Source: a virus. Taken from it: a DNA stretch of 23,710 bases. Numbering within the stretch: the first letter of the stretch is position 1; each line of letters begins with the position of its first letter. Of the stretch, positions 2,317-23,445 are shown one piece after another. The stretch covers positions 1 to 23,710 of IMG/VR virus record IMGVR_UViG_3300023179_000512. One strand, 5' to 3'. The notes under the pieces are model-generated. The model did no database searches. It was not told where the DNA came from and saw only the letters and a program-made list of their open reading frames with translations. Made by a program: the position numbers and the translations under genes.

Positions 2317-2859
2317 ATGCAAGTTTTCGCTATAAAATCAGGAAACTGGTCTGATCCTACAATCTGGTGTTATCAGGTTGTTCCCGGTGTAGATGATATT
2401 GTATATAGTGCTGGAAAGGATATAGTTATAGATACAGATATTGCTTGTAGTCTAATAACAACTGATTCACCTATTGATGGTCAATTTTATGGTGGTACAT
2501 TTATTTTAGAGGATGAAATTACTTTTGTAGGAAACATTGCTGCTAAGACAAATACTTGTTTAAAATTCTCTGGTACAAATTCTACAATCATTGGAAGTAT
2601 ATCTGGAGGAGATGGTGGTTACATGGCTGGTGTTGAAAATTTAAGCTCTGGGACTTTAAATATTTTTGGTGAAGTAAGAGGAGGTAATGGAGGTTATAGT
2701 TACGGAATTAACAATACCTCTGCAGGTACTATAAATTTATCAGGCACTTCTTTATTAGGTCTTGGAGGTTACTCTTGGGGTATTTGGAATACAGGTTTAG
2801 GAAAAGTTTTTATAAATGGTCAAGAATATACCGGTGAAGGAGGTTTTATAAATGGCTGA
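2317..2859 (+). CDS. Short G8-like/beta-helix fibre paralogue lacking the C-terminal cap
   Basis: This 180-residue protein starts like the next three genes: a G-W-S-D-P-T-W motif, then P-G-V-D-D-I-V and G-K-D-I-V-I-D, the pattern of a G8-like N-terminal domain. Three to four glycine-rich coils follow (YGINNTSAGTINLSG type, about 23 residues each), as expected for a right-handed beta-helix. Unlike its neighbours it stops there and lacks the shared C-terminal region with RGQWPTAGN and PPASSVRLGT. It overlaps the following gene by 8 bases (ATGGCTGA). It could be a truncated paralogue kept for recombination, or a short accessory subunit. The role as a fibre or receptor-binding component is inferred from position and architecture. 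Confidence 0.75.
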   Translation: MQVFAIKSGNWSDPTIWCYQVVPGVDDIVYSAGKDIVIDTDIACSLITTDSPIDGQFYGGTFILEDEITFVGNIAAKTNTCLKFSGTNSTIIGSISGGDGGYMAGVENLSSGTLNIFGEVRGGNGGYSYGINNTSAGTINLSGTSLLGLGGYSWGIWNTGLGKVFINGQEYTGEGGFING

Positions 2860-4279
2860 TTATTGGCCAGCGGCAAACGGAAGCTGGAGCACTCTTAGTA
2901 ACTGGTTAACAGCTACAGGGGTTACTGCTGGGGTATTGCCAACTTCTACAGATGATGTATATGCGGATGGTAAAACGATTACTATAGATATTAGTACAAG
3001 AGTTAATTCTATAAGAACAACACAAAGAACTGGAGGAACTATAGGGGGTACATTTAATATTTCGAATAATATATCATTAACTGCTTCAGTGTTCGCTGGT
3101 TCTACGAGTTGCCTTGTTTTTAATTTAGCCTCTCCTAATAGTGCAACACTTGTAGGTAATGCTGTCGGGGGCTCTTCATCAGGAGCATCTGGGGTTGCAG
3201 TTTCAAATACAGGTACTTTAAATGTTGTTGGAAATCTTTCTGCGTCCGTTTTTAATAGAGGTTACGGGGGAGGCTTTTCTGCAGCAGGCACTTTAAATGT
3301 AGTTGGAGATATTGTTGCTAATTCAGGTAGTGGTACAGCAGCGTTTGGTGTTTTGGTTAACAGTTCTGGTACGTTAAATTTAACAGGTAACGCATACGGC
3401 TCTCGTCAAACAGCAACTGGTACCAACTTTAGTAGTGGTCTTGCAATAGAGACTACGCCTGGCTCTATAAGAGTTATTGGGGGAGTGTATGGTGGGGCAA
3501 CTGCATCGGTTTATGGAATTAACCTAGCTGATTTAGCAAATTCGAGTGTGAGTGTAAGTGGTATTATAGTAGGAGGTTCTGGTACAAACGCTCATGGCAT
3601 TAGCAATAGTAATTCAACAATAACTATTAATGTAACTGGAACAGTTTTAGGTGGAAGTGGTACTACTGCTTATGGTATTAGCCATGGAACAGCTAGTTCT
3701 GTGTATATTTACGGTACAGCTAAAGGAGGAATTACAGCCCCTGGTGTTAATAATTCATCAACAGGATTTTTGTATTGCACAAAAGTGGTAGGTAATGATT
3801 ACGGTCTAGGTTCTGCAGGAATAGGTAGTGTAGTTGGAGCAAGTAATTCACAAAACGGAAGAATGTATGTTGAGCAAGTTGAGTTTGGTATAAGAGGTCA
3901 GACTCCAATTACCGGGCCCGTTTATATACTTCCATCAAATCAAAATACATTAGTAGGTTATACAACAGCAACAGGGAGCACTGTAACATTTTATAACTCT
4001 TTATCAGTATCAGGGTTGATGCCTCCAGCAAGTTCTGTAAGACTAGGAACAGTTTATAATGTCGGTAATACAACAGGTACTATGGCAGTTCCTTCAGCTA
4101 GTGCTGTAGAATTTGGAGTACCTGTAGACAATACAGTTGGTGTAGCTGCTTTAACCCCTCAAACAGTTTGGGGATATTCTAGATTATCTGCAACTGATGT
4201 AGGGTCAATGGGTGATAGACTTCGTAATGCAGCTACAGCGCAATCTGTAGGAAGTCAAATAGCTTCATTTAATTTATAA
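2852..4279 (+). CDS. G8-like plus beta-helix fibre protein, paralogue 2
   Basis: A 475-residue paralogue. The N-terminus (about residues 1-70) carries YWPAANGSWSTLSNW, LPTSTDDVYADGKTITID and a GGTIGGTF stretch, matching the G8-like start of the downstream paralogues almost word for word. Residues of about 90-310 are beta-helix coils with repeated (T/S)G(T)-hydrophobic-x-V-x-G and YGI-N/S motifs. The C-terminal 150 residues hold the shared RGQTPITGPVYILPSN, PPASSVRLGT-YNVG and VPVDNTVG...QTVW cap. No signal peptide or membrane segment is visible. The start is chosen from the alignment with paralogues; it overlaps the previous stop. Likely an extracellular receptor-binding or decoration protein of the virion; host target unknown. 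Confidence 0.8.
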   Translation: MADYWPAANGSWSTLSNWLTATGVTAGVLPTSTDDVYADGKTITIDISTRVNSIRTTQRTGGTIGGTFNISNNISLTASVFAGSTSCLVFNLASPNSATLVGNAVGGSSSGASGVAVSNTGTLNVVGNLSASVFNRGYGGGFSAAGTLNVVGDIVANSGSGTAAFGVLVNSSGTLNLTGNAYGSRQTATGTNFSSGLAIETTPGSIRVIGGVYGGATASVYGINLADLANSSVSVSGIIVGGSGTNAHGISNSNSTITINVTGTVLGGSGTTAYGISHGTASSVYIYGTAKGGITAPGVNNSSTGFLYCTKVVGNDYGLGSAGIGSVVGASNSQNGRMYVEQVEFGIRGQTPITGPVYILPSNQNTLVGYTTATGSTVTFYNSLSVSGLMPPASSVRLGTVYNVGNTTGTMAVPSASAVEFGVPVDNTVGVAALTPQTVWGYSRLSATDVGSMGDRLRNAATAQSVGSQIASFNL

Positions 4280-4282
4280 TGT

Positions 4283-5608
4283 ATGGCAACTTATTGGCCT
4301 TCAGCAAACGGTCTTTGGAGCACTCTTAGTAACTGGCTTACTGCTACAGCTACTCAAGCAGGAACTTTACCTACTATTGCAGATGATGTTTATGCTGATG
4401 GTAAAAACATTTACATAGATATTAGTACTAGTGTTGCCTCAGTAAGAACTACAGCTCGTTCAGGTGGTGTTGCTGGTGGCAACTTTTACCCTAATAATAA
4501 TATTACTTTATCTGCTACAAATATTGTACCGGGAACTACAACTTGTATAACTTTTTTAAGCGCTTTTCCAAATACTTGTACAATAGTTGGTAATGTTTCT
4601 GGATCTAATACCACTGGTATTGTAGGTATTAATAACAATACCAGTGGTACAATGACTATATATGGAAGCGTTGAAGGGGGTCCAATAGGAGGAAATGCTT
4701 ATGGAGCATATAATGCTTCTACAGGCACTTTAACAATTTACGGAAATGTAAGTGGAGCAAGAGCAGTTACTGCAACAGGTTACGGTGTTTTTAATAATAG
4801 TATAGGTATTATTAATATTATAGGAAATTCATATGGGAGAGTTGCTGCTGGCCTTATAAACAATAGTACAGGTGTTATTAATATAACAGGTAATTGTATA
4901 GGTAGTTCGACAAACAATATTTATGGTTCTATTAATAATTCTTTTGGAATATTAAATATATTTGGAATATGTAATGGAGGCTCAGGTACTACCACTTACG
5001 GTGTTAATAATAATAGTGGTGGTACAGTTCAAATTTATGGCAATTCTTTAGGTGGTACAGGTGCGACAGCTTATGGAGCTAATAATAACGCAACCGGATT
5101 CATGTATGTTCAGGGAACCGCTATAGGTAACGGCTGGGGTCTAGGATCTTCTGGTATTGGAGGTGCTGCACCAGGAATTTTCGGATCTCAAACTGGAACA
5201 ACAATCATTCAAGGATTATCTTGTGGGGCTAGAGGTCAATGGCCAACAGCAGGTAATGTTTTTATATTACCTACTAATACCTCTACAACAACAATGTTTA
5301 CTTCTGCTTCTGCTGCACAAGTTCTCTTTACATCTCTTTCTACAAATATAGTACCACCAGCATCTTCAGTAAGACTGGGAACAAAATATAATTTAAATGA
5401 CTATACAGGCACGTGTGCTATACCTTCTATAAGTTCTGTACTACAAGGTGTAGCTGTAGATAATTCTATAGGTATTGTAGCTTTACAACCACAAACAGTT
5501 TGGAGTGTTCAGACAAGTGCTATAGATACAAATTCATTAGGAGGGAGGTTAAAAGAATCAGCAACAGTTCAAAGTTTTGGACAATTGTTGACAGCTTTTA
5601 ATATGTAG
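4283..5608 (+). CDS. G8-like plus beta-helix fibre protein, paralogue 3
   Basis: A 441-residue paralogue beginning three bases after the previous stop. The first 65 residues nearly repeat the preceding protein (YWPSANGLWSTLSNW, DDVYADGK, IDIST). Then come about eight coils of 20-24 residues built on the pattern YG-x-NN-S-x-G-x-hydrophobic-N-I-x-G-N, typical of a parallel beta-helix. The C-terminal cap carries GARGQWPTAGNVFILPTN, PPASSVRLGT-YN, AIPSISSVLQGVAVDN and QTVW, ending in LLTAFNM. Coil number and coil sequence differ from the neighbours while both ends are conserved, which suggests modular exchange of the helix part. Receptor-binding or decoration function is inferred. Confidence 0.8.
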   Translation: MATYWPSANGLWSTLSNWLTATATQAGTLPTIADDVYADGKNIYIDISTSVASVRTTARSGGVAGGNFYPNNNITLSATNIVPGTTTCITFLSAFPNTCTIVGNVSGSNTTGIVGINNNTSGTMTIYGSVEGGPIGGNAYGAYNASTGTLTIYGNVSGARAVTATGYGVFNNSIGIINIIGNSYGRVAAGLINNSTGVINITGNCIGSSTNNIYGSINNSFGILNIFGICNGGSGTTTYGVNNNSGGTVQIYGNSLGGTGATAYGANNNATGFMYVQGTAIGNGWGLGSSGIGGAAPGIFGSQTGTTIIQGLSCGARGQWPTAGNVFILPTNTSTTTMFTSASAAQVLFTSLSTNIVPPASSVRLGTKYNLNDYTGTCAIPSISSVLQGVAVDNSIGIVALQPQTVWSVQTSAIDTNSLGGRLKESATVQSFGQLLTAFNM

Positions 5609-5610
5609 TT

Positions 5611-7191
5611 ATGGCAAATATTAGAGCTACTAAAAATGGTGTTTGGTCAGATGCTACAGTCTGGTCCCCTAATGCTCCTACTTCCACAGATGATGTTTTT
5701 GCTTCAGGGTTTACTATCTATGTGGATCAAAACATACAAGTCTTATCTATTAATACAATTGGTACAACAGGTATAGGCGGCGGTGGAACATTTAGACCTA
5801 ATAATGGTGTGGTAATGACTACAAATGTTATATCTGGTTCTTCTACTTGTGTTACTTTTGCTAGTGCATCCCCTAATGCTTTTACTCTTGTAGGAAGTGT
5901 AACTGCTGGAAACGCTACGAGTATATACGGAATTAATAATTCCTCAACAGGGACAGTTAATATTATAGGTAACGTATCTAATGGCACAGGTGGTTCAACA
6001 TTTTGTATTGTTAACAATAGTACGGGGACAGTTAATATTACAGGGTATGCTTTAGGTAATAGATATGCTACTACTGGTTCCGGAACCGGAATTTATAATG
6101 TTACTTCTGGTGTCGTGAACATATATGGGGGTAGTTTCGGGGGTAGTTTAGCTAGTTGTACAGGTTCTCAAAATGCTAGCACAGGTACTATTACAATTTA
6201 CGGAACTGTAAGTGGTTATAGCGGAACAAATTCTTATGGGGCTATTAATAGTTCGTCAGGTATAATAAGGGTTTTTGGTAATGTATATGGAGGTCAAGGA
6301 ACAAGCACACCTGGTCTTGTTAATAACTCAACAGGCACAGTTGAAGTTTCTGGTAATGTTTACGGTTATGATTTTTCAAGAGCAGATTTAAATCAGCCAA
6401 TAGGAGGTTCTGGTAGTTATGGTCTTAGAAACGTTTCTACTGGTATAATATCAGTTACTGGTAACGTTTTTAGTGGTAATCAAAGAAGTGATTGTTGGGG
6501 AATACACAATGAGGTGGGTGGTTCTGTTACGGTTGTCGGTAACACTTACGGGGGCAACACTACAGATGCAGATGGCGCTAGAAATACCTCAACAGGCACC
6601 ATAACAATTTCCGGAAATGCTATTGGTGGAAATGGTACAACGGCTTATGGTGCAAGAAACGTCTCAACAGGTATTCTTAGAGTTAAAAGAGCTATAGGAA
6701 ATGATTGGGGATTAGGATATACTACAGCTGTAGGTGCTGCTCCTGGTGTATTTTCTTCAGCTCAAGGCTCTCAAACTTTTGTAGAAGAATTGCAATGCGG
6801 TTCAAGAGGTCAATGGCCAACAGCTGGTAATATATACTTTACACCAAATACAAAAGCTACTGCAATGTTTGAAACAGATACCTTTCAAAATTACACTTTA
6901 ATAGAATCAAATTCTGCTGATAATCTTCAACCACCTGTAAGCTCGGTAAGACAAGGAACAACCTATAATTTAGGACTTAGTACGGGTACTTGTATAATAC
7001 CTTCTACAAGTTCTGTAGCTTTAAATATTCTCGTAGACAATTTATCAGGTACTGCAGTCTTAACACCAACAAACGTTTGGAACATTTCTGCTTCTCAAAT
7101 AACTGATAGTCAGAGTTTAGGAGGAAGACTTAAAAATACTTTAACAGCTAATGCAGCAGAAAAAATAATAAATTCATTAAATTTTTCTTGA
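5611..7191 (+). CDS. G8-like plus beta-helix fibre protein, paralogue 4
   Basis: The longest paralogue, 526 residues, starting two bases after the previous stop. The N-terminal domain has the classic G8-like spacing (NGVWSDATVW, then PTSTDDVFASG and IYVDQNIQVLSIN). About ten beta-helix coils follow, with repeated NNSTGT-V-NI-GN and YGG motifs, including an irregular insertion (FSRADLNQP) near residue 255. The cap again holds SRGQWPTAGN, PPVSSVRQGTTYNLG, VDNLSGTAVLTPTNVW and a final LGGRLKN. It ends the structural block; the next gene is an unrelated hsp20 after 94 bases. A trimeric fibre or spike role is plausible because beta-helix phage proteins usually trimerise, but that is inference. Confidence 0.8.
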   Translation: MANIRATKNGVWSDATVWSPNAPTSTDDVFASGFTIYVDQNIQVLSINTIGTTGIGGGGTFRPNNGVVMTTNVISGSSTCVTFASASPNAFTLVGSVTAGNATSIYGINNSSTGTVNIIGNVSNGTGGSTFCIVNNSTGTVNITGYALGNRYATTGSGTGIYNVTSGVVNIYGGSFGGSLASCTGSQNASTGTITIYGTVSGYSGTNSYGAINSSSGIIRVFGNVYGGQGTSTPGLVNNSTGTVEVSGNVYGYDFSRADLNQPIGGSGSYGLRNVSTGIISVTGNVFSGNQRSDCWGIHNEVGGSVTVVGNTYGGNTTDADGARNTSTGTITISGNAIGGNGTTAYGARNVSTGILRVKRAIGNDWGLGYTTAVGAAPGVFSSAQGSQTFVEELQCGSRGQWPTAGNIYFTPNTKATAMFETDTFQNYTLIESNSADNLQPPVSSVRQGTTYNLGLSTGTCIIPSTSSVALNILVDNLSGTAVLTPTNVWNISASQITDSQSLGGRLKNTLTANAAEKIINSLNFS

Positions 7192-8270: not shown

Positions 8271-8810
8271 ATGCCTCTATCAGATGAAGACATGTATCGT
8301 ATTATGGGACCAACTTCAATGGCACCAGATGAATTAGGTGAAATAAAACAATCTACAAGACCAAAAAAACAATACTACTCTTGGGATCATTTTCACACTT
8401 TGGTTGGTGAAGTTAAAAAGCGTGTTAAAAGAACGCCTAATATTATTGTTTCTATAGGCAAAGGAGGGTCTATCCCAGGGGTTATCTTAGCAGAAGCCTT
8501 TGGATGTAATAACCTTAATTTGGGTTTAAAGTCTTATAAGAACCAAGAGCGTGGCACAATACATGAATATCAGGATATAAAATGCTTTGAAGGCTTAAGA
8601 GATGCTAATATTCTTATCGTAGATGATATAGCCGACTCTGGTGAAACCTTTAAGTATGCTGTTAACAAATTTAAAGGTAATGGTTGTGAAAGGATTGAAA
8701 CAGCTTCCGTATTTTACAAACCTTGTTCGAAATTTAAACCTGATACCTACGCAGAAGAGGTAGAAGAAACAACTTGGATTGTTCAGCCCTGGGAAGCTAT
8801 GGAAGATTAG
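8271..8810 (+). CDS. Purine-type phosphoribosyltransferase
   Basis: A 179-residue type I phosphoribosyltransferase, which would join a base to PRPP to give a nucleotide. The diagnostic PRPP-binding loop ILIVDDIADSGET is at about residues 114-126, and the VSIGKGGSIPGVILAEAF segment at about 60-77 corresponds to the pyrophosphate-binding part with the usual R/K-G-G-x-x-P pattern. The final WIVQPWE resembles the C-terminus of xanthine/guanine phosphoribosyltransferases (Gpt-like, about 150 residues), so purine salvage is most likely; the base cannot be read from the sequence. The start has no Shine-Dalgarno and is supported by the promoter geometry; M8 or M12 are alternatives. It overlaps the convergent Nudix gene by 14 bases. 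Confidence 0.85.
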   Translation: MPLSDEDMYRIMGPTSMAPDELGEIKQSTRPKKQYYSWDHFHTLVGEVKKRVKRTPNIIVSIGKGGSIPGVILAEAFGCNNLNLGLKSYKNQERGTIHEYQDIKCFEGLRDANILIVDDIADSGETFKYAVNKFKGNGCERIETASVFYKPCSKFKPDTYAEEVEETTWIVQPWEAMED

Positions 8811-9225
8811 TAATAAACCTTTTATACATATCCCAATAAGGTCTAAATACCGAAGTTAAGTTTTCTGATTTAACTTTTCTATAATTTACCCATTTATAGT
8901 CTTTATGCTCCCAAGAAAGAGTAGGCATAAAACTATCGTTAACAACCATAAAAAATGAGTAAACAGGCTGTTTTTCACCTTCTTTGGTAATCTTTAATTT
9001 ACCTATAAGTTTTCCTTCTGGTAACAACCCTAACTCTTCTTGACATTCTCTTTCAGCAGTTTCTAAAGGAGAATATTCTTCCGGCTCTCTATGTCCACCA
9101 GGAAAAGTCCATTTACCGTTTTCTTTTTGAAGTAAAAGAATTTCTTTTTTAGGTGTTATAAAAACAATACCTGCTCCAAGATATTTAATTTTTACAAATT
9201 CTGCAAAATTCATTGTTGATAACAT
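8797..9225 (-). CDS. Nudix hydrolase
   Basis: A 142-residue protein with the Nudix signature: GGHREPEE at about residues 43-50, then RECQEELGL at 59-67, containing the R-E-x-x-E-E-x-G core that binds the catalytic metal. The gap between the first Glu and the Arg is one residue longer than the canonical G-x5-E-x7-R pattern (YSPLETAE). Flanking strands (AGIVFITPKKEILLLQKENGKWTFP) and the late WEHKDYKWVNY match mutator-type Nudix proteins, which cleave nucleoside diphosphates linked to another group. The substrate cannot be read: oxidised dNTPs, ADP-ribose or caps are all possible. ATG 9213 (MNFAEF) is an alternative start. Divergent from the bS21 gene with overlapping promoter space. Confidence 0.88.
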   Translation of the reverse strand: MLSTMNFAEFVKIKYLGAGIVFITPKKEILLLQKENGKWTFPGGHREPEEYSPLETAERECQEELGLLPEGKLIGKLKITKEGEKQPVYSFFMVVNDSFMPTLSWEHKDYKWVNYRKVKSENLTSVFRPYWDMYKRFITNLP

Positions 9226-15761: not shown

Positions 15762-16100
15762 CGAGAAGTAGCCGAATAGTATTATAATATAAAAAATGGG
15801 CATTAATAAAATTGATCCGTAAATGCAAGCAGCACCAATACTTAACCAGACACCTAAACATAGCGGACAAGTAATTAAAGCTGTTAAAAACTTGCAAATC
15901 GGACATTTAAATAGAGTTCTTGATTTTACATACAAATACTGTGTAAAAGTAAGGTTATTTGGGTCTTTATCATAACCTAAAAGTAAAAAGTTCAAACCAA
16001 ATAGTTTACTATACTCAACAAAAGCAGCTGATTTAAACCATACAACCATAATTGTAAGTACAAAGCATACTAAATTTACAAAAAGTAGTAAATCTCCCAT
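15741..16100 (-). CDS. Membrane protein with CPIC/CPLC motifs
   Basis: A 119-residue protein with several hydrophobic segments: DLLLFVNLVCFVLTIMVVW at the N-terminus, then two helices near the C-terminus around FLTALITCPLCLGVWLSIGAACIY and ILLMPIFYIIILFGYF. Cys pairs CPIC and CPLC, the latter in C-P-x-C-x-G-x-W, recall the DUF1360 type of small membrane proteins, function unknown. ATG 16100 is preferred: the longer frame from 16166 would run into the divergent gene at 16122 and its promoter. It is convergent with the nuclease gene. Confidence 0.72.
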   Translation of the reverse strand: MGDLLLFVNLVCFVLTIMVVWFKSAAFVEYSKLFGLNFLLLGYDKDPNNLTFTQYLYVKSRTLFKCPICKFLTALITCPLCLGVWLSIGAACIYGSILLMPIFYIIILFGYFSLDRIIG

Positions 16101-16121
16101 AAATATATATAATCTAATTAT

Positions 16122-16559
16122 ATGAAATTTGATAGTCTTTTTAAAACTGTATTTCTCACCGAACAAGACGAAGTAGCTTTACCAGATGAAAATGTAGCTC
16201 CAGAAGAAGTTCCTGCTGAAGAAACACCAGCTCCAGAAGCTGATGGTGTTCCAATGCCAGATAATTACGATGTAGAACCTGTACCTGTTTCTCAACCTGT
16301 TGGAGATGCCGGTTCTATCAAAAATTTCATTATGAAATTAGATGAATTTGCTGACACTTTAAACGGCGTTGATACTGGTTCTTTACAGCAAATGGTAACT
16401 GACATGGATAGAGCTGGTTCATTGTTCCAGGGTATTTCTCGTGAAACATCTTCAGATATTATTAAATTAGCTGAACAGTCGAGACAGTTATCTGAAATTC
16501 TTAAAGGTTTTATTATCAACTCTGCTAAAAGACAGAGAGATATTGCTGCCGGCGCTTAA
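16122..16559 (+). CDS. Acidic protein with capsid-targeting-like N-terminus
   Basis: A 145-residue protein. It begins MKFDSLFKTVFLTEQDE, with an L-T-E that matches the (L/I)-x-E rule for cleavage by the T4 prohead protease. Residues of about 18-60 are Pro/Glu/Ala-rich and disordered (PEEVPAEETPAPEADG). From about 65 there are helices that could form a coiled coil (SIKNFIMKLDEFADTL, SSDIIKLAEQSRQLSEILKGF). The composition resembles prohead core or internal proteins of T4-like phages, but homology is not established. TATAAT at 16108-16113 lies eight bases upstream. The primase gene follows after 17 bases. Confidence 0.75.
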   Translation: MKFDSLFKTVFLTEQDEVALPDENVAPEEVPAEETPAPEADGVPMPDNYDVEPVPVSQPVGDAGSIKNFIMKLDEFADTLNGVDTGSLQQMVTDMDRAGSLFQGISRETSSDIIKLAEQSRQLSEILKGFIINSAKRQRDIAAGA

Positions 16560-16564
16560 TCCTA

Positions 16565-16570
16565 TATAAT
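16565..16570 (+). promoter_or_regulatory. -10 box and ribosome binding site before the primase gene
   Basis: TATAAT at 16565-16570, with TTGCTG at 16543-16548 as a possible -35 (16-base spacer). The start GTG is six bases later. AAAGAGG overlaps the GTG, too close to be a normal ribosome binding site, so leaderless initiation is possible. Confidence 0.4.
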
Positions 16571-16576
16571 AAAGAG

Positions 16577-17581
16577 GTGGAAGGATTACCTCAAGATTAC
16601 GTCATACAGGCTCTCTACTCTTACTGTAAAAGACCGACGTACAAGAAGTATCAAAGAACATATAACGCAGAGTGTTGTGTGTGTGGGGAAGGTAGTTCTG
16701 CAGGCCGTAAGAGACGTCTGTTTTACTTTCCTGACGACCGTTATTTTTATTGTTTTAACTGTTCTAAGTCTTGGAACGAACTTTCATGGATTCATGAAGT
16801 TACTAAAAAAACCATTCCTGAGATTTTAAAAGAGACAAAAAATTTTCACGGATCAGCTGAAATACAAAGTAAAATAGCTAAACAAAGTGAAGCAGTAAAG
16901 GTATACGATATACCTACAATACCTGATGACGCTATTAATATCTGTGATCCAAGTCAGATTGAGTTTTATAAAGACAATAAATTTATTAAAAAAGTAATTG
17001 ATTATTGTCAGTCGAGAAGATTATTTAGTGCTGTTAATAAACCAAAGTCATTGTATGTATCTTTTAAAGATAAGGTGCATAAGAATAGACTTATAATTCC
17101 CTTTTATGGAGAATCGGGTAAGATTGAGTGCTATCAATCAAGAACTCTTGACGGTGATACATATCCAAAATATCTAACAAAGTATGGAGAGAAGAATCTA
17201 TACGGCGAGAACAATATTGATAATAATATTCCTTACATTTTTATCTTCGAAGGACCTATTGATGCTATGTTCGTTAAAAACGCTGTAGCGGTTGGCGGTT
17301 CTTCAATGACTGATAAACAAGAAGCTTTTATTAAGAAGTGTGTCGATAAAGAAATTATCTACGTTTACGATAACGATAAGAATAATAAAGAGATGTCTAA
17401 AAAAATTAAGAACCTTATTAAACAAAATAAAAAACTCTTTGTATGGCCTAAAGAACTTAAGAAGTACAAAGATGTTAACGAGATATGCTGTAACCTTTGT
17501 TTAGACGAACTACCTTACAAATTTATCGTACAAAACTCCTACTCTGGAGTCGAAGCTTTAATGAAACAAAAAATTACTTGA
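16577..17581 (+). CDS. DNA primase, T4 gp61-like
   Basis: A 334-residue primase that would make RNA primers for lagging-strand synthesis with the phage helicase. An N-terminal zinc ribbon is formed by Cys33, Cys36, Cys59 and Cys62 (ECCVCGEG...FYCFNCSKSW). The TOPRIM part has IIPFYGESGKIECYQSRT, the catalytic FEGPIDAMF (Glu at about 225) and the metal-binding YVYDNDK (about 262). The length is close to T4 gp61 (342 residues), and no helicase domain is attached. The GTG start is preferred because the zinc ribbon needs the N-terminal region; a TATAAT lies six bases upstream. Its end overlaps the convergent gene by eight bases. Confidence 0.9.
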   Translation: MEGLPQDYVIQALYSYCKRPTYKKYQRTYNAECCVCGEGSSAGRKRRLFYFPDDRYFYCFNCSKSWNELSWIHEVTKKTIPEILKETKNFHGSAEIQSKIAKQSEAVKVYDIPTIPDDAINICDPSQIEFYKDNKFIKKVIDYCQSRRLFSAVNKPKSLYVSFKDKVHKNRLIIPFYGESGKIECYQSRTLDGDTYPKYLTKYGEKNLYGENNIDNNIPYIFIFEGPIDAMFVKNAVAVGGSSMTDKQEAFIKKCVDKEIIYVYDNDKNNKEMSKKIKNLIKQNKKLFVWPKELKKYKDVNEICCNLCLDELPYKFIVQNSYSGVEALMKQKIT

Positions 17582-17813
17582 GATTACTTACACAGAAGTT
17601 AATAGCCTTAAGAAACTTATCTTTGTAATTACGGATTGGCTTTACTTCTACATCAGTCTCTGCTTCTTCAATCATTTGCAGTCTAGAAAATTCTTCTTTA
17701 AGAGACTTTAAAAATTTTTCTGAAAATTGAATTTGCTTTGGATAACGAACTCTTGTAACCACTTTCATGGTTCTTGGAAAAAAACTTTCACAAATTTGAT
17801 CAAACTTAGACAT
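17574..17813 (-). CDS. Small protein of unknown function
   Basis: A 79-residue protein, MSKFDQICESFFPRTM..., with a helical, charged remainder (FSEKFLKSLKEEFSRLQMIEEAETDVEV). Its start resembles the aromatic N-terminal stretch of several other proteins in this block, but there is no (L/F)-x-E cleavage-like site in the right place. Its ATG overlaps the stop of the upstream gene by one base (TAATG), so it is translationally coupled to it. Function unknown; a small partner of the 372-residue protein is plausible. Confidence 0.7.
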   Translation of the reverse strand: MSKFDQICESFFPRTMKVVTRVRYPKQIQFSEKFLKSLKEEFSRLQMIEEAETDVEVKPIRNYKDKFLKAINFCVSNLK

Positions 17814-18931
17814 TAACGAGTGCCTCCGTATATAGTTTGTCCGCTAAAAGCTGTTATAGCGTTTAAAACATCGGTTAACGAATTTATAGCTCCAAAAATT
17901 GCTTTGCCGGCGACTTTCCAACCATTTGGGTTAGTGCCTTTTTTAATGTTATTAAAAAGAGATAAAAATGCTTCATATATTTCTTGACTCATACCGGTAC
18001 GATTACTAAAATCAGCAACTTTTGTAATTAAAGGGCCTTTTTCATCAATAACATATATTGATTTCCCGTGAGTAAAATTTTTATAATCATTTCTTAAAGC
18101 ATTACCGGCGTTTTCAAAAGTTGCATTTATTTTACCTGCAGATTTATCAAGTATATTTTTAAAATTATTTTCTTCAATATTTAAATTTTTTATTTTTTCG
18201 TTTGTTGAAATTTGTTTTAAAATTTCTTCCCGATAAAAAAGTAACATTAATTTAGAAATTTCAACAATTGTAGCTAAAATTGGTCCATCAATATTACTTT
18301 TTTGTGTGTAACGAGTTTCACCAGGGTAATATATAATATTTTTTACAAGTTTAATATCATAACCGCCATATTCTTTTAATAATTTCATTATAGAATCATA
18401 TGGAGAAAGATTGAGATATTCTTCAGCTGCTAAAGTTTGAGTTTGATCTATTAACTGTTTTAATCTAGTTGAAGTCCATTGACGATAATTATTATAATTT
18501 TCAAATAAATTTTCTATTTTTTCTTGTATAGTTTGTACAACTTTGTTTTTTATATCTTGATTGTTATCAATTTTTGAATTTGGGTATAATTTAAGCAAAT
18601 AACTTAAAAATTCTTCTTCGTTTAACGCTTTATTTAAACATTTACCTACATCTTCTGCTTGTTGTTCTTTAAAAACATTTATAATACTATACCCTTGTAA
18701 AATTCTAATTATAGCATATAAAGTATCTATTATAGGCCATACTGGTCTCATACCTAATAAAGTATCTTTTTTAAGACGGGTGCTACCAGTTTGTGATAAT
18801 TCCCATGCCCATGTTGCTAATTCTATTAATGAATTATTACTAGGTATTAAAAATTTAATTTTTTCTCCTAAAGTGTTTGTTTGCTCGATTAATAAACGTT
18901 CTACTAAAAACTTAAAATTAATTTTAGACAT
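17813..18931 (-). CDS. Unknown protein, possibly virion-internal
   Basis: A 372-residue, mostly helical protein. It starts MSKINFKFLVERLLIEQTN, where L-I-E is a candidate prohead-protease site. The rest shows amphipathic helices (VVQTIQEKIENLFENYNNY, TSTRLKQLIDQTQTL), a conserved-looking YYPGETRY and a Gly-rich C-terminal KVAGKAIFGAINSLTDVLNAITAF segment that could contact membranes. No catalytic motif is seen. The gene has a T4-late-type TATAAATA at 18952-18945, 13 bases before ATG, which would fit a late structural gene. It is coupled to the 79-residue gene downstream. Confidence 0.72.
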   Translation of the reverse strand: MSKINFKFLVERLLIEQTNTLGEKIKFLIPSNNSLIELATWAWELSQTGSTRLKKDTLLGMRPVWPIIDTLYAIIRILQGYSIINVFKEQQAEDVGKCLNKALNEEEFLSYLLKLYPNSKIDNNQDIKNKVVQTIQEKIENLFENYNNYRQWTSTRLKQLIDQTQTLAAEEYLNLSPYDSIMKLLKEYGGYDIKLVKNIIYYPGETRYTQKSNIDGPILATIVEISKLMLLFYREEILKQISTNEKIKNLNIEENNFKNILDKSAGKINATFENAGNALRNDYKNFTHGKSIYVIDEKGPLITKVADFSNRTGMSQEIYEAFLSLFNNIKKGTNPNGWKVAGKAIFGAINSLTDVLNAITAFSGQTIYGGTR

Positions 18932-18960
18932 AAATTCGTATTATTATTTATACGAATTTA
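18931..18960 (-). promoter_or_regulatory. Late-type promoter inside an 11-bp inverted repeat
   Basis: TATAAATA at 18952-18945 (minus strand) equals the T4 late promoter consensus. TAAATTCGTAT (18931-18941) and ATACGAATTTA (18950-18960) form a perfect inverted repeat with an eight-base centre. It reaches from the stop of the kinase gene to the ATG of the next gene, filling the whole gap. Confidence 0.6.
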
Positions 18961-19590
18961 CATATTAGCTAACAAAGAACCATCTTCTTCATCAAAGAAT
19001 TTACCTGATGGTTTAATATACAAAGGAATCTGTTCAATACGTAAATCCGGCGGGCCTTCTAAAGTTATAACAGCAGGACAGTCTACTTTAGGAAAGAAAA
19101 TACCTTGCTGCTTTTCATATGTTCCAACAACAGCTCTAAAAAGATTATCAATCTCTTGACGGTAAACGGGATCAATAGCACGGCCTTTTTTAGGCACTAT
19201 ACTAATTTCCTCTCTTAACGGAAGATAAAAGATAATATCAAAAATACGGATTGCTTCAAAAGCAATGCGCTTTGTATCCATAATAAACTCATCAGATACT
19301 TTACCTTTTTCATTAAGCCAAAGAGAGTAAACGATATTATCAATTACACAGCGATCAAATACTAAAAATTCATTATCTTCTGCAGAAGCTTTTTGTGTAT
19401 CATCAATAATTGCATCGAGAATAGCTCTCTGAGATTCTGCTGTACCTTCTTCATTGTTAGTAATTTTACCGGTTTTAATAAGTTTACGGTAAGTAGACTT
19501 AACTTCTTTGTACATCGGCCAACGCTTACAGAATTCTTTAATCAGTGTACTTTTTCCATTATTTTGACATCCCATTACAGCTATTTTCAT
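18958..19590 (-). CDS. P-loop kinase, AAA_28/NadR-kinase-like
   Basis: A 210-residue nucleotide-binding protein. Walker A GCQNNGKST is at residues 7-15 at the end of the first strand, as in nucleoside and nucleotide kinases. A FDRCVIDNIVYSLWL motif (D-R-x-x-x-D-N) at about 99-113 matches the DR-box of deoxynucleoside kinases and NadR-type nicotinamide riboside kinases. A late lid region is basic (VPKKGRAIDPVYRQEID). The substrate cannot be decided: a (deoxy)nucleoside, dNMP or nicotinamide riboside. The NMN-adenylyltransferase-like gene in the same strand block makes NAD salvage worth considering. An endonuclease remnant lies just upstream, with its stop four bases before this ATG. Confidence 0.8.
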   Translation of the reverse strand: MKIAVMGCQNNGKSTLIKEFCKRWPMYKEVKSTYRKLIKTGKITNNEEGTAESQRAILDAIIDDTQKASAEDNEFLVFDRCVIDNIVYSLWLNEKGKVSDEFIMDTKRIAFEAIRIFDIIFYLPLREEISIVPKKGRAIDPVYRQEIDNLFRAVVGTYEKQQGIFFPKVDCPAVITLEGPPDLRIEQIPLYIKPSGKFFDEEDGSLLANM

Positions 19591-19594
19591 ATTT

Positions 19595-19858
19595 TTAAAT
19601 AAATTTTATTTTCTTTTGTATTAACAAAGAGTCTATTTCGTTTTGTTTTAAAAGATCAAAATCTTTCTCTGTATAAACCTTATATTCTTTATTAATTTGC
19701 TTAGCAAATATTTTTGCTGCTTGTTGTTTACTTATATTTTGTTCAGTATTAATCAACGCTGCTGGCTTAATTTCAATTATTTCTTTTTCTGTAATAAAAT
19801 CAGGAAAATAATTACGCTTAACCCCTTGTTTTGTAACATGGGTATCAATAAAAGCAGT
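19595..19858 (-). pseudogene. Remnant of a PD-(D/E)XK endonuclease (C-terminal part)
   Basis: An 87-codon stretch without an ATG or GTG start. It reads TAFIDTHVTKQG, then VKRNYFPDFITEKEIIEIKP, the P-D and E-x-K core of a PD-(D/E)XK nuclease, then a helical IFAKQINKEYKVYTEKDFDLL tail as in TnsA-like or phage nucleases. The part with the first catalytic Glu is missing: the frame begins right after TGA (queE stop) and TAA. The only possible start, a TTG inside, would remove the catalytic core. It appears to be the surviving end of a nuclease gene cut by recombination at the queE boundary. The core resembles the endonuclease at 10437 (YYFPDF, IVEIKG). Confidence 0.65.
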
Positions 19859-19861
19859 TTA

Positions 19862-20620
19862 TCAAACTTTCAAAGCTTTGTCCCAGATTACCAACTGCAA
19901 TCTCGGAGAAAAATTAACATGCATTGCTTTAGCATATTCAGCTACAGCAGGAGCATTTTCAATATGTTCTTTTCTTGATCCACAGCAAGGCATAAACCAA
20001 ATACGATATAAGGGTATATTTATACCTTCGTAATCATTAACGTATTTTCTCCAAATTTCTTCAATATCTCTGTCAGAGGTGATAACAAATTTAAAACCAG
20101 ATCCATGTTCTACATGCCACTTTAATACTTCGGGTTTGTAAGTCTTTTCTTCTGGATCCCCATTAGTTGTTAGTTTAGGGGATGTGGTAAACGTAGCTTT
20201 ATATACACTTACCCATCTTTCAGAAGGTGTTAGAGTAGCATTTGTTTCAAAATCGATTCTAGGTATAAAATTATATCGTTCTACAAATGCTTCTATAAGT
20301 TTAAGAAGCTGCTTTTCTTGAACAAAAGGTTCTCCGCCAGTTAGCTTTAAAATAGCACCACATTTAAGATGTTCAACGAAATTATTTTCTTCCATCGTTT
20401 GAAAAATCTCTAAAAAAGTCATTTTATTTTTTACAGACCATGAAATAAAAGAGTCACAACCGTTAGGTGAGTCAGGTGAAGACCATGCTTTGCACGAAAG
20501 ATTACACATTGATAAACGCATAAAAACAGATGGTTTACCAATATATTCTCCTTCCCCTTCTATAGTTAGAAAGATTTTGTCGTCAGATAAGAACAATGTT
20601 TCTTTATTAATATCAATCAT
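19862..20620 (-). CDS. queE: 7-carboxy-7-deazaguanine synthase-like radical SAM enzyme
   Basis: A 252-residue enzyme that would convert 6-carboxytetrahydropterin to 7-carboxy-7-deazaguanine in queuosine/preQ0 synthesis. The N-terminus has FLTIEGEGEYIGKPSVFMRL as in QueE, the iron-sulfur cysteines at 39, 43 and 55, and LTGGEPFVQ (about 93-101), the GGE SAM-binding motif. The Cys spacing is C-x3-C-x11-C (CNLSC, then GCDS) instead of the usual C-x3-C-x2-C, an insertion similar in kind to that in some other QueE proteins. A good Shine-Dalgarno (GGAGG, 20632-20628) lies eight bases before ATG. With QueD close by, it supports 7-deazaguanine synthesis; QueC and FolE are not in the window. Confidence 0.9.
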   Translation of the reverse strand: MIDINKETLFLSDDKIFLTIEGEGEYIGKPSVFMRLSMCNLSCKAWSSPDSPNGCDSFISWSVKNKMTFLEIFQTMEENNFVEHLKCGAILKLTGGEPFVQEKQLLKLIEAFVERYNFIPRIDFETNATLTPSERWVSVYKATFTTSPKLTTNGDPEEKTYKPEVLKWHVEHGSGFKFVITSDRDIEEIWRKYVNDYEGINIPLYRIWFMPCCGSRKEHIENAPAVAEYAKAMHVNFSPRLQLVIWDKALKV

Positions 20621-20623
20621 AAA

Positions 20624-20830
20624 TTAACCTCCAATAACAAATTTATAAAGCATTGTACACAACACAATAGCAATCCACCCGATTGGATTAAACAATAGTA
20701 AATAAAATAAAGCAAAAATCAAGACAGAGCAAATAGTTAAAAAGTCCCAAAATCCAATTTTACGATCTTTTGGTACCACTTTTTCAAACTTAGCTGTAAT
20801 TATTTCAAGATCTTTTTTCATAAATTGCAC
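20624..20830 (-). CDS. Small membrane protein
   Basis: A 68-residue protein with a charged N-terminus (KKDLEIITAKFEKVVPKDRK) and two close hydrophobic stretches (FLTICSVLIFALFYLLLF and IGWIAIVLCTMLYKFVI) separated by NP, a helical hairpin. Function unknown. The GTG at 20830 or the ATG at 20821 (MKKDLE) can start it; the latter overlaps queD by 17 bases. The queE ribosome binding site lies at its 3' end. It sits between queD and queE, so it is co-transcribed with them. Confidence 0.65.
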   Translation of the reverse strand: MQFMKKDLEIITAKFEKVVPKDRKIGFWDFLTICSVLIFALFYLLLFNPIGWIAIVLCTMLYKFVIGG

Positions 20831-21251
20831 TATTTAAATCGTGTTCCCAGACCTCTACCTTATTAAGCCAACAACGACCTACAGACATTTCTTTGATCAT
20901 AGGATCAACTGTCTTAAAGCACCACTCGGCCGTCTTTTCAATACCAACACCATCCATAATTTTAAGAACACAACCACCAAGTTGGTCTAATTCTTTAAAG
21001 TGCTCGAGTAATGGGTCGTCTTTTGCAATACAGAGAGTATGATCAAATTGATCCTGTAAAACCTTTTTAACATCTTTTAAGCCACCAAAATTAATAACCC
21101 AGTTCTTATTATCTAAACCTGTACAACCGAACCAAAATTTAGCCATTAAACGATACCCGTGAACATATTTACAGTGAGTGCCTTCAGCTCTCCATTGACG
21201 GAAAGCACAAGAACCGAGCTCTATAATCTTAGTTGATTCAAATCTTACCAT
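20805..21251 (-). CDS. queD: QueD/6-pyruvoyl-tetrahydropterin synthase-like enzyme
   Basis: A 148-residue protein of the 6-carboxytetrahydropterin synthase family, which turns dihydroneopterin triphosphate into the QueE substrate. Seen: CKYVHGY with Cys27 and His31, INFGGLKDVKKVL, FDHTLCI with His71, GIEKTAEW, and VEVWEHDLNSA. The usual zinc triad (one His in an A-A-H motif and H-G-H) is only partly kept: F17 replaces the first His and the second H-G-H His is Tyr33. Other phage QueD-like proteins carry a similar F-R-Q-W...C...H-G-Y variant as I recall, so activity may persist with other ligands. The ATG overlaps the preceding stop by one base. Confidence 0.85.
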   Translation of the reverse strand: MVRFESTKIIELGSCAFRQWRAEGTHCKYVHGYRLMAKFWFGCTGLDNKNWVINFGGLKDVKKVLQDQFDHTLCIAKDDPLLEHFKELDQLGGCVLKIMDGVGIEKTAEWCFKTVDPMIKEMSVGRCWLNKVEVWEHDLNSAIYEKRS

Positions 21252-21538
21252 TAGGCTTGTTGTAATGGAATTATGTTTAAGTCTTTTTTAAAGAAATTAA
21301 AGACTGATTGTGTCCAAGAATCTTCATAATTTTCTTCTTGATAAAAGACAATATTATCTAATTTAGTTGAGCCATTCAAGCTACGCTTAAGCTTTTTAGA
21401 TAGAGATACCATTTTAGTAATATCTTTTTCATCCCATTCAGCTCCAACGTTAACAGAAGAAGCAAACAAAAGGGCTTCTAAAAGCATGTTTGCCTCATCT
21501 TGCTTGAGTTCTAGTGTTACCGTACTACTATTTTTCAT
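21251..21538 (-). CDS. Small acidic/helical protein, unknown
   Basis: A 95-residue protein. The N-terminal half (TVTLELKQDEANMLLEALLFASSVNV) looks like a strand-helix unit, followed by a polar helix (EKDITKMVSLSKKLKRSL) and a C-terminal FNFFKKDL. No motif is recognised. It is the first gene of the queD-membrane-queE unit and is coupled to queD by a TAATG overlap. A good promoter ends eight bases before its ATG. It may regulate or assist the deazaguanine enzymes, which is context only. Confidence 0.7.
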   Translation of the reverse strand: MKNSSTVTLELKQDEANMLLEALLFASSVNVGAEWDEKDITKMVSLSKKLKRSLNGSTKLDNIVFYQEENYEDSWTQSVFNFFKKDLNIIPLQQA

Positions 21539-21546
21539 ATAGCAGT

Positions 21547-21574
21547 ATTATACTAACTCTAGAACTTATTTCAA
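21547..21574 (-). promoter_or_regulatory. Sigma70-like promoter of the que gene block
   Basis: TTGAAA (21574-21569), 16-base spacer, TATAAT (21552-21547), minus strand. Eight bases separate the -10 from ATG 21538 and there is no Shine-Dalgarno, so the transcript would be leaderless or nearly so. The -35 lies in the last codons of the upstream nucleotidyltransferase gene. Confidence 0.65.
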
Positions 21575-22180
21575 CTTTTTATTAAACAAGTTATAGATAT
21601 CTTTATCAAACTTATCGTACAGGTCAACAATGATTTGTTTTCTTTCTTGATCCGAGACATGTTTATACATATCTCTTATTTGAGATGCACTGGTTATATT
21701 TTTACCTAATACTTTAAAAGGAAATGTTTTTCCGACTTTTATATACCCTTTTTGACCCATAGGTAAGAGCGGCATGCTCTCTACGTATTTTGCAAAATAG
21801 CTTGGTGATCCGTCTTTTTTAGGCTTGTATGAAAATCTATCAACATCTTTTTCAGATACAACATATATAAGATGATCTTTTGTATCATTATATTTTGATG
21901 TTATTTCTTTTGCTACATATGTACTAACAACCTGCATTATTCTATTACTAGGTATGCCGGCTTTTTCTAATAAAAATTTACGCTCTTGAAAATTAAATGG
22001 TGATTTTTCGTTAACTACATTTGAAGTAGCAACCCATACATCTGCTTCAGGGTACTCTTGTACTATAGAATTATAAATCATAGCGTGCCCTCTATGAGCA
22101 GGCTGAAATCTACCGGGGTAAATTATAACTAATTTCCCATCTCTTGTTTGTTCTGTAAAAAAACTATTAAAAGCTATCAT
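21566..22180 (-). CDS. NMN adenylyltransferase-like nucleotidyltransferase (NadM type)
   Basis: A 204-residue nucleotidyltransferase of the HxGH superfamily. GRFQPAHRGH at residues 23-32 contains the ATP-binding H-x-G-H; ITSASQIRD near 164 corresponds to the C-terminal I-S-S-T-x-x-R motif. The best fit is NMN adenylyltransferase (NMN + ATP to NAD), with other cytidylyl/adenylyl transfer possible. The first ten residues, MIAFNSFFTE, precede the catalytic fold and end in F-T-E, resembling a T4 capsid-targeting peptide. Its ATG overlaps the stop of the ligase-like gene by four bases (ATGA), so the two are coupled. The P-loop kinase at 18958 could supply NMN if it is NadR-like. Confidence 0.87.
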   Translation of the reverse strand: MIAFNSFFTEQTRDGKLVIIYPGRFQPAHRGHAMIYNSIVQEYPEADVWVATSNVVNEKSPFNFQERKFLLEKAGIPSNRIMQVVSTYVAKEITSKYNDTKDHLIYVVSEKDVDRFSYKPKKDGSPSYFAKYVESMPLLPMGQKGYIKVGKTFPFKVLGKNITSASQIRDMYKHVSDQERKQIIVDLYDKFDKDIYNLFNKKLK

Positions 22181-23445
22181 TTGAATTTCTTTTCTCTTGG
22201 TACGGCAAAGTTAGCTCGTGAAAATTCTAATCTATCTACAAGTTTTATTGAATTACCTACATGATCAACGGCAACAAAACCTTCTGGTTTTGTAACTTTA
22301 AGTGTGCCATCTGGTTGAGCTATAAATTGTTTTGATTTTACAGCGTTACTATATTTTGTAATAAAAATTTTTTTAATTTCAGCAATTTTTTCAGTTATAC
22401 TAAATATGTTAATAATTGAAAGTTTATTTTGTTTGAAAAATTCTAACGCTTTATTTTTGTTTTCTGTTTTTTTCTGCCTTGTAGCATCAGTTTTTACTTT
22501 TTCAGGGTTGTTTATTTCAGCATCTTTTCTATCATTAAACCATTGAATAAAATCGTCAAAATTTTTATCTAAATCTCCAACAAATTCACCTCTTTTAATT
22601 AAAAAGTTTATAAATGTGTTAGCATCTATATAAAATGTTGTAGGTAATGTAGTCCAGTTTATAATCTTTGCAGAATTTTGTATAAATTTTAAACTTTTTT
22701 CAACTATTTTTTTTTCTTGTTCTGTTAAAGTAACAAGCCCTGACATATCTTTGAATTTTGCATCATCTACCCATACATCTGGTGTTTGATTAAATTCAGC
22801 AGCTGATACATCTGGAGATTGTTTAAGTTGTTTAAAGGATGGTCCTGTAAGTCTTGTATGAAATACAATACCAATTTGTGCTCTTTGTACTTTTTTACCT
22901 AATTCAGAGTTAGCTTCTACTGCATAGGTAATAGTATTAGGTTTGAAGGTTATTAATTCTTCGCCTTCATAGTTAACTCTACTCAAAGATGCTTTATCAA
23001 ACATAAAATCACCTTGATACATGTTTTGTTTAATAACATTTGGTAAATACAATAAAGCTAGTTTAAGTTTATCCGCTAAACCCGGACTCTCACTATAATA
23101 TGTAGCAATATCTTGTACAGTATAACATGCTTTTGCTGTTTTTGCTCCAACACCTTTAGTACCTACAAAAAAACGTCCATCTTCAGGATTGTAACCACAT
23201 ATTAATGCAGGCGCGCCATCATACTTTACTGTTGTAAAAATTTTTGAATCAGTACTTCCTTCTAATACCCGAACAAGTTCATTAATAAACTGAACAGCAA
23301 GATCTAAACCTTGTTTTTGGCCCTTCAATACAAGCTCTTCAAGATGTGTAAGGTGATGTATAATACCTTCACCAGCAGCTTCTTGAATAGATATGGTTTT
23401 ACCTGTGCTTTCTTTAAAAAAACTATAAAAAGCTTGTTCAATCAT
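22177..23445 (-). CDS. Nucleotidyltransferase of the RNA/DNA ligase superfamily
   Basis: A 422-residue protein. Motif I TTVKYDGAP (Lys74, the probable nucleotidylated lysine in K-x-D-G), then RFFVGTKG, YQGDFMFD (motif III-like), and close to the C-terminus KPEGFVAVD (motif IV E-G-x-V) and SIKLVDRLEF (motif V-like). This is the set expected for polynucleotide ligases, here with a Lys-rich coiled insertion at about residues 310-370. The reaction (RNA or DNA sealing, or another nucleotidyl transfer) cannot be decided. The N-terminus MIEQAFYSFFKE again looks like a capsid-targeting peptide. It overlaps the NadM-like gene by four bases. An inverted repeat TAACGCT/AGCGTTA (23445-23451/23462-23468) surrounds its upstream gap. 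Confidence 0.82.
   Translation of the reverse strand: MIEQAFYSFFKESTGKTISIQEAAGEGIIHHLTHLEELVLKGQKQGLDLAVQFINELVRVLEGSTDSKIFTTVKYDGAPALICGYNPEDGRFFVGTKGVGAKTAKACYTVQDIATYYSESPGLADKLKLALLYLPNVIKQNMYQGDFMFDKASLSRVNYEGEELITFKPNTITYAVEANSELGKKVQRAQIGIVFHTRLTGPSFKQLKQSPDVSAAEFNQTPDVWVDDAKFKDMSGLVTLTEQEKKIVEKSLKFIQNSAKIINWTTLPTTFYIDANTFINFLIKRGEFVGDLDKNFDDFIQWFNDRKDAEINNPEKVKTDATRQKKTENKNKALEFFKQNKLSIINIFSITEKIAEIKKIFITKYSNAVKSKQFIAQPDGTLKVTKPEGFVAVDHVGNSIKLVDRLEFSRANFAVPREKKFK

Follow-up and report, generated by a model that had tools for sequence, protein, structure and literature searches.

We propose that a marine T4-like phage loads selected proteins into its prohead by means of short N-terminal capsid-targeting sequences (hereafter tags), with a NadM/NMNAT-like nucleotidyltransferase as the best-supported cargo. 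The phage is represented by virus record IMGVR_UViG_3300023179_000512, a stretch of 23,710 nt with 37 genes (the window), which is probably a fragment of a virus genome. We put the probability of such packaging here at roughly three in four, on the strength of the conservation of the N-termini, their position outside the folded domains, a prohead protease gene in a relative and agreement with the virion proteomes of other phages. Judged by its gene content (primase-like, QueD, QueE, deoxynucleoside-kinase-like, AAA, HSP20 and PDDEXK-like genes) and its relatives in IMG/VR, the window belongs to a T4-like myovirus. The relatives compared were G001 (103 kb), G002 (75 kb, locus L040) and G003 (locus L044). 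The DNA polymerase and prohead protease of G001 match T4-like phages at <40% identity, with cyanophages among the closest matches, and the low identity indicates that the lineage is divergent.

A conserved tag on an NMNAT-like enzyme

A preliminary description of this DNA had pointed to four short N-termini of similar pattern in otherwise unrelated proteins, and all four were confirmed in position and strand (Table 1). Near the N-terminus, an aromatic-hydrophobic-x-Glu motif occurs in 4 of the 37 window genes where about 1.2 would be expected, which is modestly above chance, and strict patterns are enriched in G001 (7 versus 1.3 expected). The motif also gives a false positive, MTFTKNMFNE, at the start of a protein resembling gp32 in the relatives, and a looser pattern additionally matches QueD and the deoxynucleoside kinase-like gene, where the motif lies within the fold. 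We therefore judged the N-termini to be above chance because their positions are conserved, and not because of the bare motif.

Conservation is clearest in the NadM-like protein. Among 11 sequences reaching down to ~40% identity, the tag has F4, F7 and E10 throughout and F8 in 10 of them, whereas residues 2, 3, 5 and 6 vary. Mutagenesis of the T4 internal protein IPIII assigned targeting mainly to residues 4 and 7 and processing to residues 8 and 10 (reviewed in PMC9026906). The conserved positions are thus the functional positions of IPIII, which supports head targeting. In the AlphaFold model of the NadM-like protein (mean predicted local distance difference test score, pLDDT, 90.6) residues 1-13 score <50 and the fold starts at about residue 14; in alignments with solved NMNAT and PPAT structures, the first residues of those chains fall at about model residue 13-17. 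Several homologues have no tag and begin straight at the fold, for example MQGKTVVIYPGRFQPFH. Because it lies off the fold and is missing from several homologues, we regard the segment as an add-on; a place within the catalytic fold, which the preliminary description had named as evidence against capsid carriage, is not what the model gives. We consider head targeting of this enzyme well supported.

The best match of the protein by sequence in the PDB is the NadM structure 2qjt (E 7.7e-8). With VIA-align, its model reaches Z scores of 10-11 to NMNAT, NadD and PPAT structures, which share the HIGH-superfamily nucleotidyltransferase fold, and PPAT and NMNAT structures tie in this comparison. The NCBIfam NMNAT models rank top with scores below their cut-off. 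The family retains a GRFQPxHxGH motif, which we take to favour NMNAT as its identity. The fold and a motif of this type are shared with bacterial and archaeal NMNAT/NadM (2qjt, 1ej2) and PPAT (1b6t), from which the window enzyme differs in having the extra N-terminal tag, in lacking a Nudix domain and in scoring below the NCBIfam cut-offs. On sequence and model together, nicotinamide mononucleotide (NMN) and a PPAT-type substrate are both possible. In L059, L071, L077 and L084, a NadM-like domain is fused behind a KxDG-containing ligase-like domain that has a tag-like N-terminus of its own (MNFQRFFILNE). These fusions suggest that the two activities work together.

A second protein shows comparable conservation. 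All 9 sequences of the 145-residue protein encoded from position 16122 (the 16122 protein) share F3, L6, V10, F11, T13, E14 and Q15; after this start comes an acidic linker that varies, and then a C-terminal domain that is conserved. Pfam and PHROG searches gave no match for it, and we regard it as a probable internal head protein.

The preliminary description had suggested looking for a gp21-like protease elsewhere in the genome, and G001 encodes a gp21-type S77 prohead protease (E 3.6e-30). The gene that follows the protease, in the position of a scaffold gene, itself starts MDFKSILKEQFKDLITE and is followed by a capsid-protein-like fragment.

Tagged enzymes in cyanophage virions

Published cyanophage virion proteomes were compared as far as their reports and protein tables were available. 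NMNAT-like/cytidylyltransferase proteins are listed in purified virions of S-CREM2 (PMC10665884, Table 3), S-SZBM1 (PMC9146016, Table 1) and S-SCSM1 (PMC9602691). These proteins start MKNFSSFLTE, MRFRQFIIE and MKSFLQFLKE, respectively. In S-CREM2 ORF154 the residues that follow the tag Glu are ADEK. The tag is also found on four other S-CREM2 virion proteins, namely an S-adenosylmethionine hydrolase, an APH-like kinase, ORF13 and ORF136. Exact T4 spacing is present in 5 of 28 detected non-structural S-CREM2 proteins and in 1 of 191 others (p 1.3e-4); when S-CREM2 and S-SCSM1 are pooled with a one-residue tolerance, the counts are 6/47 versus 2/397 (p 2.5e-5). A loose [LIVF]-x-E pattern is a poor detector, being found in 11 of 28 detected and 35 of 167 non-detected S-CREM2 proteins (p 0.035). 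On these sequence comparisons, packaging into the head would offer an explanation for the enzymes repeatedly seen in cyanophage virions. S-CREM2 ORF12 (OR473000, 7704-10313), a Cas9-like virion protein, has FASFMAE at about residues 19-25; the motif, some 17 residues in, perhaps reflects a start codon called too far upstream.

Several observations weigh against packaging in the phage of the window. The strict pattern is found in 2 of 109 G002 genes against 1.6 expected, a weak enrichment in the lineage, and the window is a fragment without the protease region, the protease being known from G001. S-CREM2 had already been inspected when the spacing test was devised, and S-SCSM1 alone (1/19 versus 1/230, p 0.15) is not significant. 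The proteome support is drawn from other phages (S-CREM2, S-SZBM1 and S-SCSM1) and from distant proteins, and the S-CREM2 authors themselves raised co-purification as a possible explanation for enzymes in virion preparations (PMC10665884). In addition, the tag of the ligase-like DUF6267 protein of this lineage, described below, is offset by two residues from the T4 spacing. The N-termini could instead be inherited disordered starts, or amphipathic leaders that serve some other purpose (binding to a partner or to membranes, for instance), on enzymes that remain cytoplasmic and co-purify with virions. The commonness and weak enrichment of the bare motif would fit this, as would the NadM-like gene, upstream of which we found no T4-late-promoter-like octamer of its own. 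We nevertheless think this explanation improbable: the invariant positions of the NadM-like tag are only those that function in T4, the tag is common to unrelated proteins, and in the available protein lists tagged enzymes are detected in virions and untagged DUF6267 relatives from the same phages are not.

The tagged proteins might also be packaged for head assembly or DNA condensation, with the enzyme folds exapted as structural parts. IPIII affects head assembly in T4 (PMC9026906) and the 16122 protein lacks any recognised enzyme domain, both of which agree with a structural role; retention of GRFQPxHxGH in the NadM-like protein and of the KxDG and EG motifs in DUF6267 fits catalysis, and we hold a purely structural role to be quite unlikely. 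For the NadM-like protein, the earlier proposal of capsid carriage is borne out by the conserved T4 positions, the off-fold segment, the protease of the relative and the tagged virion homologues, while two of the proposed cut sites, both in other proteins, had been misplaced.

A probable ligase-like cargo protein

The protein encoded at 22177-23445 belongs to Pfam family DUF6267 (E 2.5e-92; 310.6 bits against a curated cut-off of 27) and to PHROG 455. When its model was compared by VIA-align, rows 1-16 were all RNA ligases with Z from 9.6 to 7.5, including Naegleria Rnl5 (9.6) and T4 Rnl2 (8.2), and all 42 sequences compared retain K74, D76, G77, E388, G389 and K401, the residues of the KxDG, EG and Lys motifs. 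Foldseek returned nothing significant for the model, though ligases were among its top rows, and a PDB sequence search gave no meaningful match and none of significance to a solved ligase; the assignment is therefore based on VIA-align and the motifs. Fold prediction and sequence make DUF6267 a predicted RNA/DNA-ligase-like nucleotidyltransferase, an assignment we regard as good but not final. The first description of the protein as ligase-like was right in kind, in that a covalent nucleotidyltransferase fold is predicted and RNA ligases rank first. DUF6267 resembles Rnl5 and T4 Rnl2 and Rnl1 in predicted fold and invariant motifs, and differs from them in lacking a significant sequence match and in carrying a large helical insert; its sealing activity is a prediction.

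In the window lineage F6 of DUF6267 does not vary and F9 hardly does, but residue 12 may be E, D, N or G; a second hydrophobic-x-Glu site recurs among relatives at about residues 20-22. The AlphaFold model has pLDDT <50 for residues 1-30. Since residue 12 varies, the 20-22 site recurs and low confidence extends through residue 30, we place the predicted cut near residue 22 and reject the cut after E12 that had been put forward. Textbook tags such as MKPFSIFLQE, MKSFLSYLTE and MLSFKQYITE stand immediately ahead of the domain in many distant marine homologues. A tag is present in the isolates HTVC008M, Melnitz and DLP_6 and absent in P-HM1, S-CRM01, S-SZBM1, Syn33 and P-SSM7. It reads MYNDLLVE|DK in HTVC008M and LINFSKYITE|DK in Melnitz. 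S-CREM2 gp87, S-SZBM1_141 and S-SCSM1_257 likewise have no tag and do not appear in the available virion protein lists.

This distribution bears on whether DUF6267 is packaged at all. Only the NadM-like and 16122 proteins might enter the head in this lineage, with the DUF6267 segment serving no head-targeting function and the enzyme staying in the cytoplasm, as it seemingly does in cyanophages. The poor conservation of Glu at residue 12 and the two-residue offset are in keeping with this, as are untagged relatives that go unlisted in the three virion proteomes, to the extent that these were available. We consider it possible but on balance unlikely, given invariant F6, nearly invariant F9, the recurrent second hydrophobic-x-Glu site, the off-fold position of the segment and the textbook tags of distant marine homologues. 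DUF6267 of the window lineage is, in our view, a probable packaged protein.

Other tagged proteins and late promoters

The 372-residue protein encoded at 17813-18931 has two homologues (48% identity) that retain FLVE11 and lose LIE16. On this basis we reject the cut after E16 in the preliminary description, whose cuts after E10 of the NadM-like protein and E14 of the 16122 protein agree with our predictions. The homologues were found only in neighbouring loci, and a direct scan of viral contigs confirmed no relatives. In G001 and G002 the slot of this gene holds an unrelated tagged protein, MFNFxKxVHLVLE|QPKP; differing tagged proteins in one slot are what would be expected of cargo that is exchangeable. 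In G003 (L044:16506-17942, minus strand), a 478-residue protein that starts MINFVGLCEKVLIAE and has a C-terminal M15 peptidase domain takes the place of a short tag-like protein found in G001 and G002.

A fifth gene with a similar conserved start, at 17574-17813, was missing from the preliminary description. At the predicted cut the homologues listed show QLCE, QICE, QLVE, QVCE or RLCE, and we consider the 79-residue product a plausible cargo protein.

The 16122 and 17813-18931 genes are each preceded, at a distance of 21-24 nt, by an octamer resembling the T4 late promoter. Each of the three relatives examined has the octamer at a matching position, 23-24 nt upstream of its 16122 orthologue. 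Across four genomes it precedes 12 of 60 tag-like genes and 22 of 262 others (p 0.011), a test that is not independent because the genomes are related, and the raw count of TATAAATA in the window is not above chance. This lends weak support to late expression of the tagged genes, at the time of head assembly. In G002 (L040:734-6439 and 17235-17513) about ten small genes have tag-like starts, including MNKDQKILAEKY, MNFDQLVNTIFEGE and MNKFNEVAQTVLKEE; several sit behind late-promoter-like octamers and two have no Pfam match. Such an array could represent a store of small proteins destined for packaging.

Two further gene groups of the window were recorded. At 8271-9225 a phosphoribosyltransferase gene lies beside a convergent NUDIX hydrolase gene, and a link to nucleotide or nicotinamide adenine dinucleotide (NAD) metabolism is possible. 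At 2317-7191 four consecutive genes encode repetitive proteins whose starts are related (ANGxWSTLSNW) and which may be paralogues of the tail-fibre or adhesin kind.

Table 1. Predicted cargo genes, targeting sequences and promoter-like octamers in the window.
Feature	Position	Strand	Basis
T4-late-promoter-like octamer CATAAATA upstream of 16122 gene	16098..16105	+	
Protein of unknown function, 145 aa, acidic linker and conserved C-terminal domain	16122..16559	+	alignment of 9 sequences
Capsid-targeting sequence MKFDSLFKTVFLTE, predicted cut after E14	16122..16163	+	conservation in 9 sequences
79-aa protein, similar start, missed by the preliminary description	17574..17813	-	[ILV]xE kept at residue 9 in homologues listed
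Possible targeting sequence MSKFDQICE, predicted cut after E9 (MSKFDQICE then SFF)	17787..17813	-	homologue starts
Protein of unknown function, 372 aa, exchangeable gene slot, plausible cargo	17813..18931	-	two homologues at 48% identity
Targeting sequence MSKINFKFLVE, predicted cut after E11	18899..18931	-	homologues MSNINFAFLVE
T4-late-promoter-like octamer TATAAATA upstream of 17813-18931 gene	18945..18952	-	
NadM/NMNAT-like nucleotidyltransferase, 204 aa, best-supported cargo	21566..22180	-	Pfam CTP_transf_like; NadM PDB match; AlphaFold
Capsid-targeting sequence MIAFNSFFTE, predicted cut after E10	22151..22180	-	conservation, pLDDT <50, absence in some homologues
DUF6267 protein, 422 aa, ligase-like nucleotidyltransferase, probable cargo	22177..23445	-	Pfam DUF6267; VIA-align; invariant motifs
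N-terminal targeting segment, residues 1-22, predicted cut after SIQE22 not FKE12	23380..23445	-	conservation, pLDDT <50

A model for loading of the head and its relation to known systems

In the model that we favour, a pair of hydrophobic residues set apart in the tag, which in the NadM-like protein are F4 and F7, would bind the scaffold core, and a gp21-type S77 protease would then cut after the Glu of the hydrophobic-x-Glu site. The freed protein would remain in the head with the DNA and pass into the host cell when the phage infects. The NadM-like and 16122 proteins are the best-supported candidates for such cargo, DUF6267 is a probable one with a cut near residue 22, and the products of 17813-18931 and 17574-17813 are plausible. 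We infer that injection in this phage could give an early NAD supply and end repair, as first suggested, so that nucleotide or NAD chemistry and nucleic-acid sealing would be available before phage genes are expressed. That this would blunt NAD-depleting or RNA-cleaving defences is a reasonable guess. A more specific version is that the NMNAT-like enzyme and an RNA-ligase-like DUF6267 form a pre-loaded repair kit, injected along with the phage DNA so that NAD depletion and RNA cleavage by host defences are reversed before phage genes are read, and that gain or loss of the DUF6267 tag switches the enzyme between packaged and cytoplasmic use. DUF6267 is tagged in the window lineage and in many marine relatives and untagged in the cyanophages examined; we regard the kit as a speculative and rather doubtful extension of head loading.

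The T4 tag and NMNAT-like virion proteins in cyanophages are already known. The gp21-cleaved T4 proteins IPI, IPII, IPIII and Alt (PMC9026906, PMC3012670) likewise have hydrophobic residues at positions 4, 7 and 8 and Glu10, outside the mature fold, and, as in T4, the tag here is common to unrelated proteins and an S77 protease is encoded by a relative of the window. The cargo differs in comprising an NMNAT-like enzyme and a ligase-like DUF6267 protein, with packaging and cutting predicted from the genes. The cyanophage virion NMNAT-like proteins share superfamily and tag pattern with the window enzyme, and the S-SZBM1 gene also adjoins a DUF6267 gene; they are, however, longer and distant in sequence, and their DUF6267 relatives are untagged. 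An NMNAT-type step could restore NAD+ as in the phage NAD+ reconstitution pathways NARP1 and NARP2, although the window enzyme would arrive pre-made in the virion, and no partner enzyme for a NARP-like pathway was identified among the window proteins examined.

It has been argued broadly that NAD- and ADP-ribose-related (NAD-ADPr) enzymes are packaged in myovirus heads (PMC9503650), and it has been suggested that the T4-type tag lets T4-like phages package varied proteins (PMC9026906). The available parts of the S-CREM2, S-SZBM1 and S-SCSM1 proteome reports (PMC10665884, PMC9146016, PMC9602691) contain no mention of the tag that we could find, and a literature search covering few subscription journals found nothing that links the tag to cyanophage NMNATs or describes tagged DUF6267 ligase-like cargo. 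Head loading by tags would explain, at the level of sequence, cyanophage virion enzymes that were suspected as contaminants, and would give a rule by which packaged proteins could be predicted from a genome. The analysis also identifies DUF6267, a family that is widespread in marine phages and has had no name, as probably a ligase-like enzyme. DUF6267 seems to be packaged by some phages and not by others, which makes the role of the packaged enzymes directly testable.

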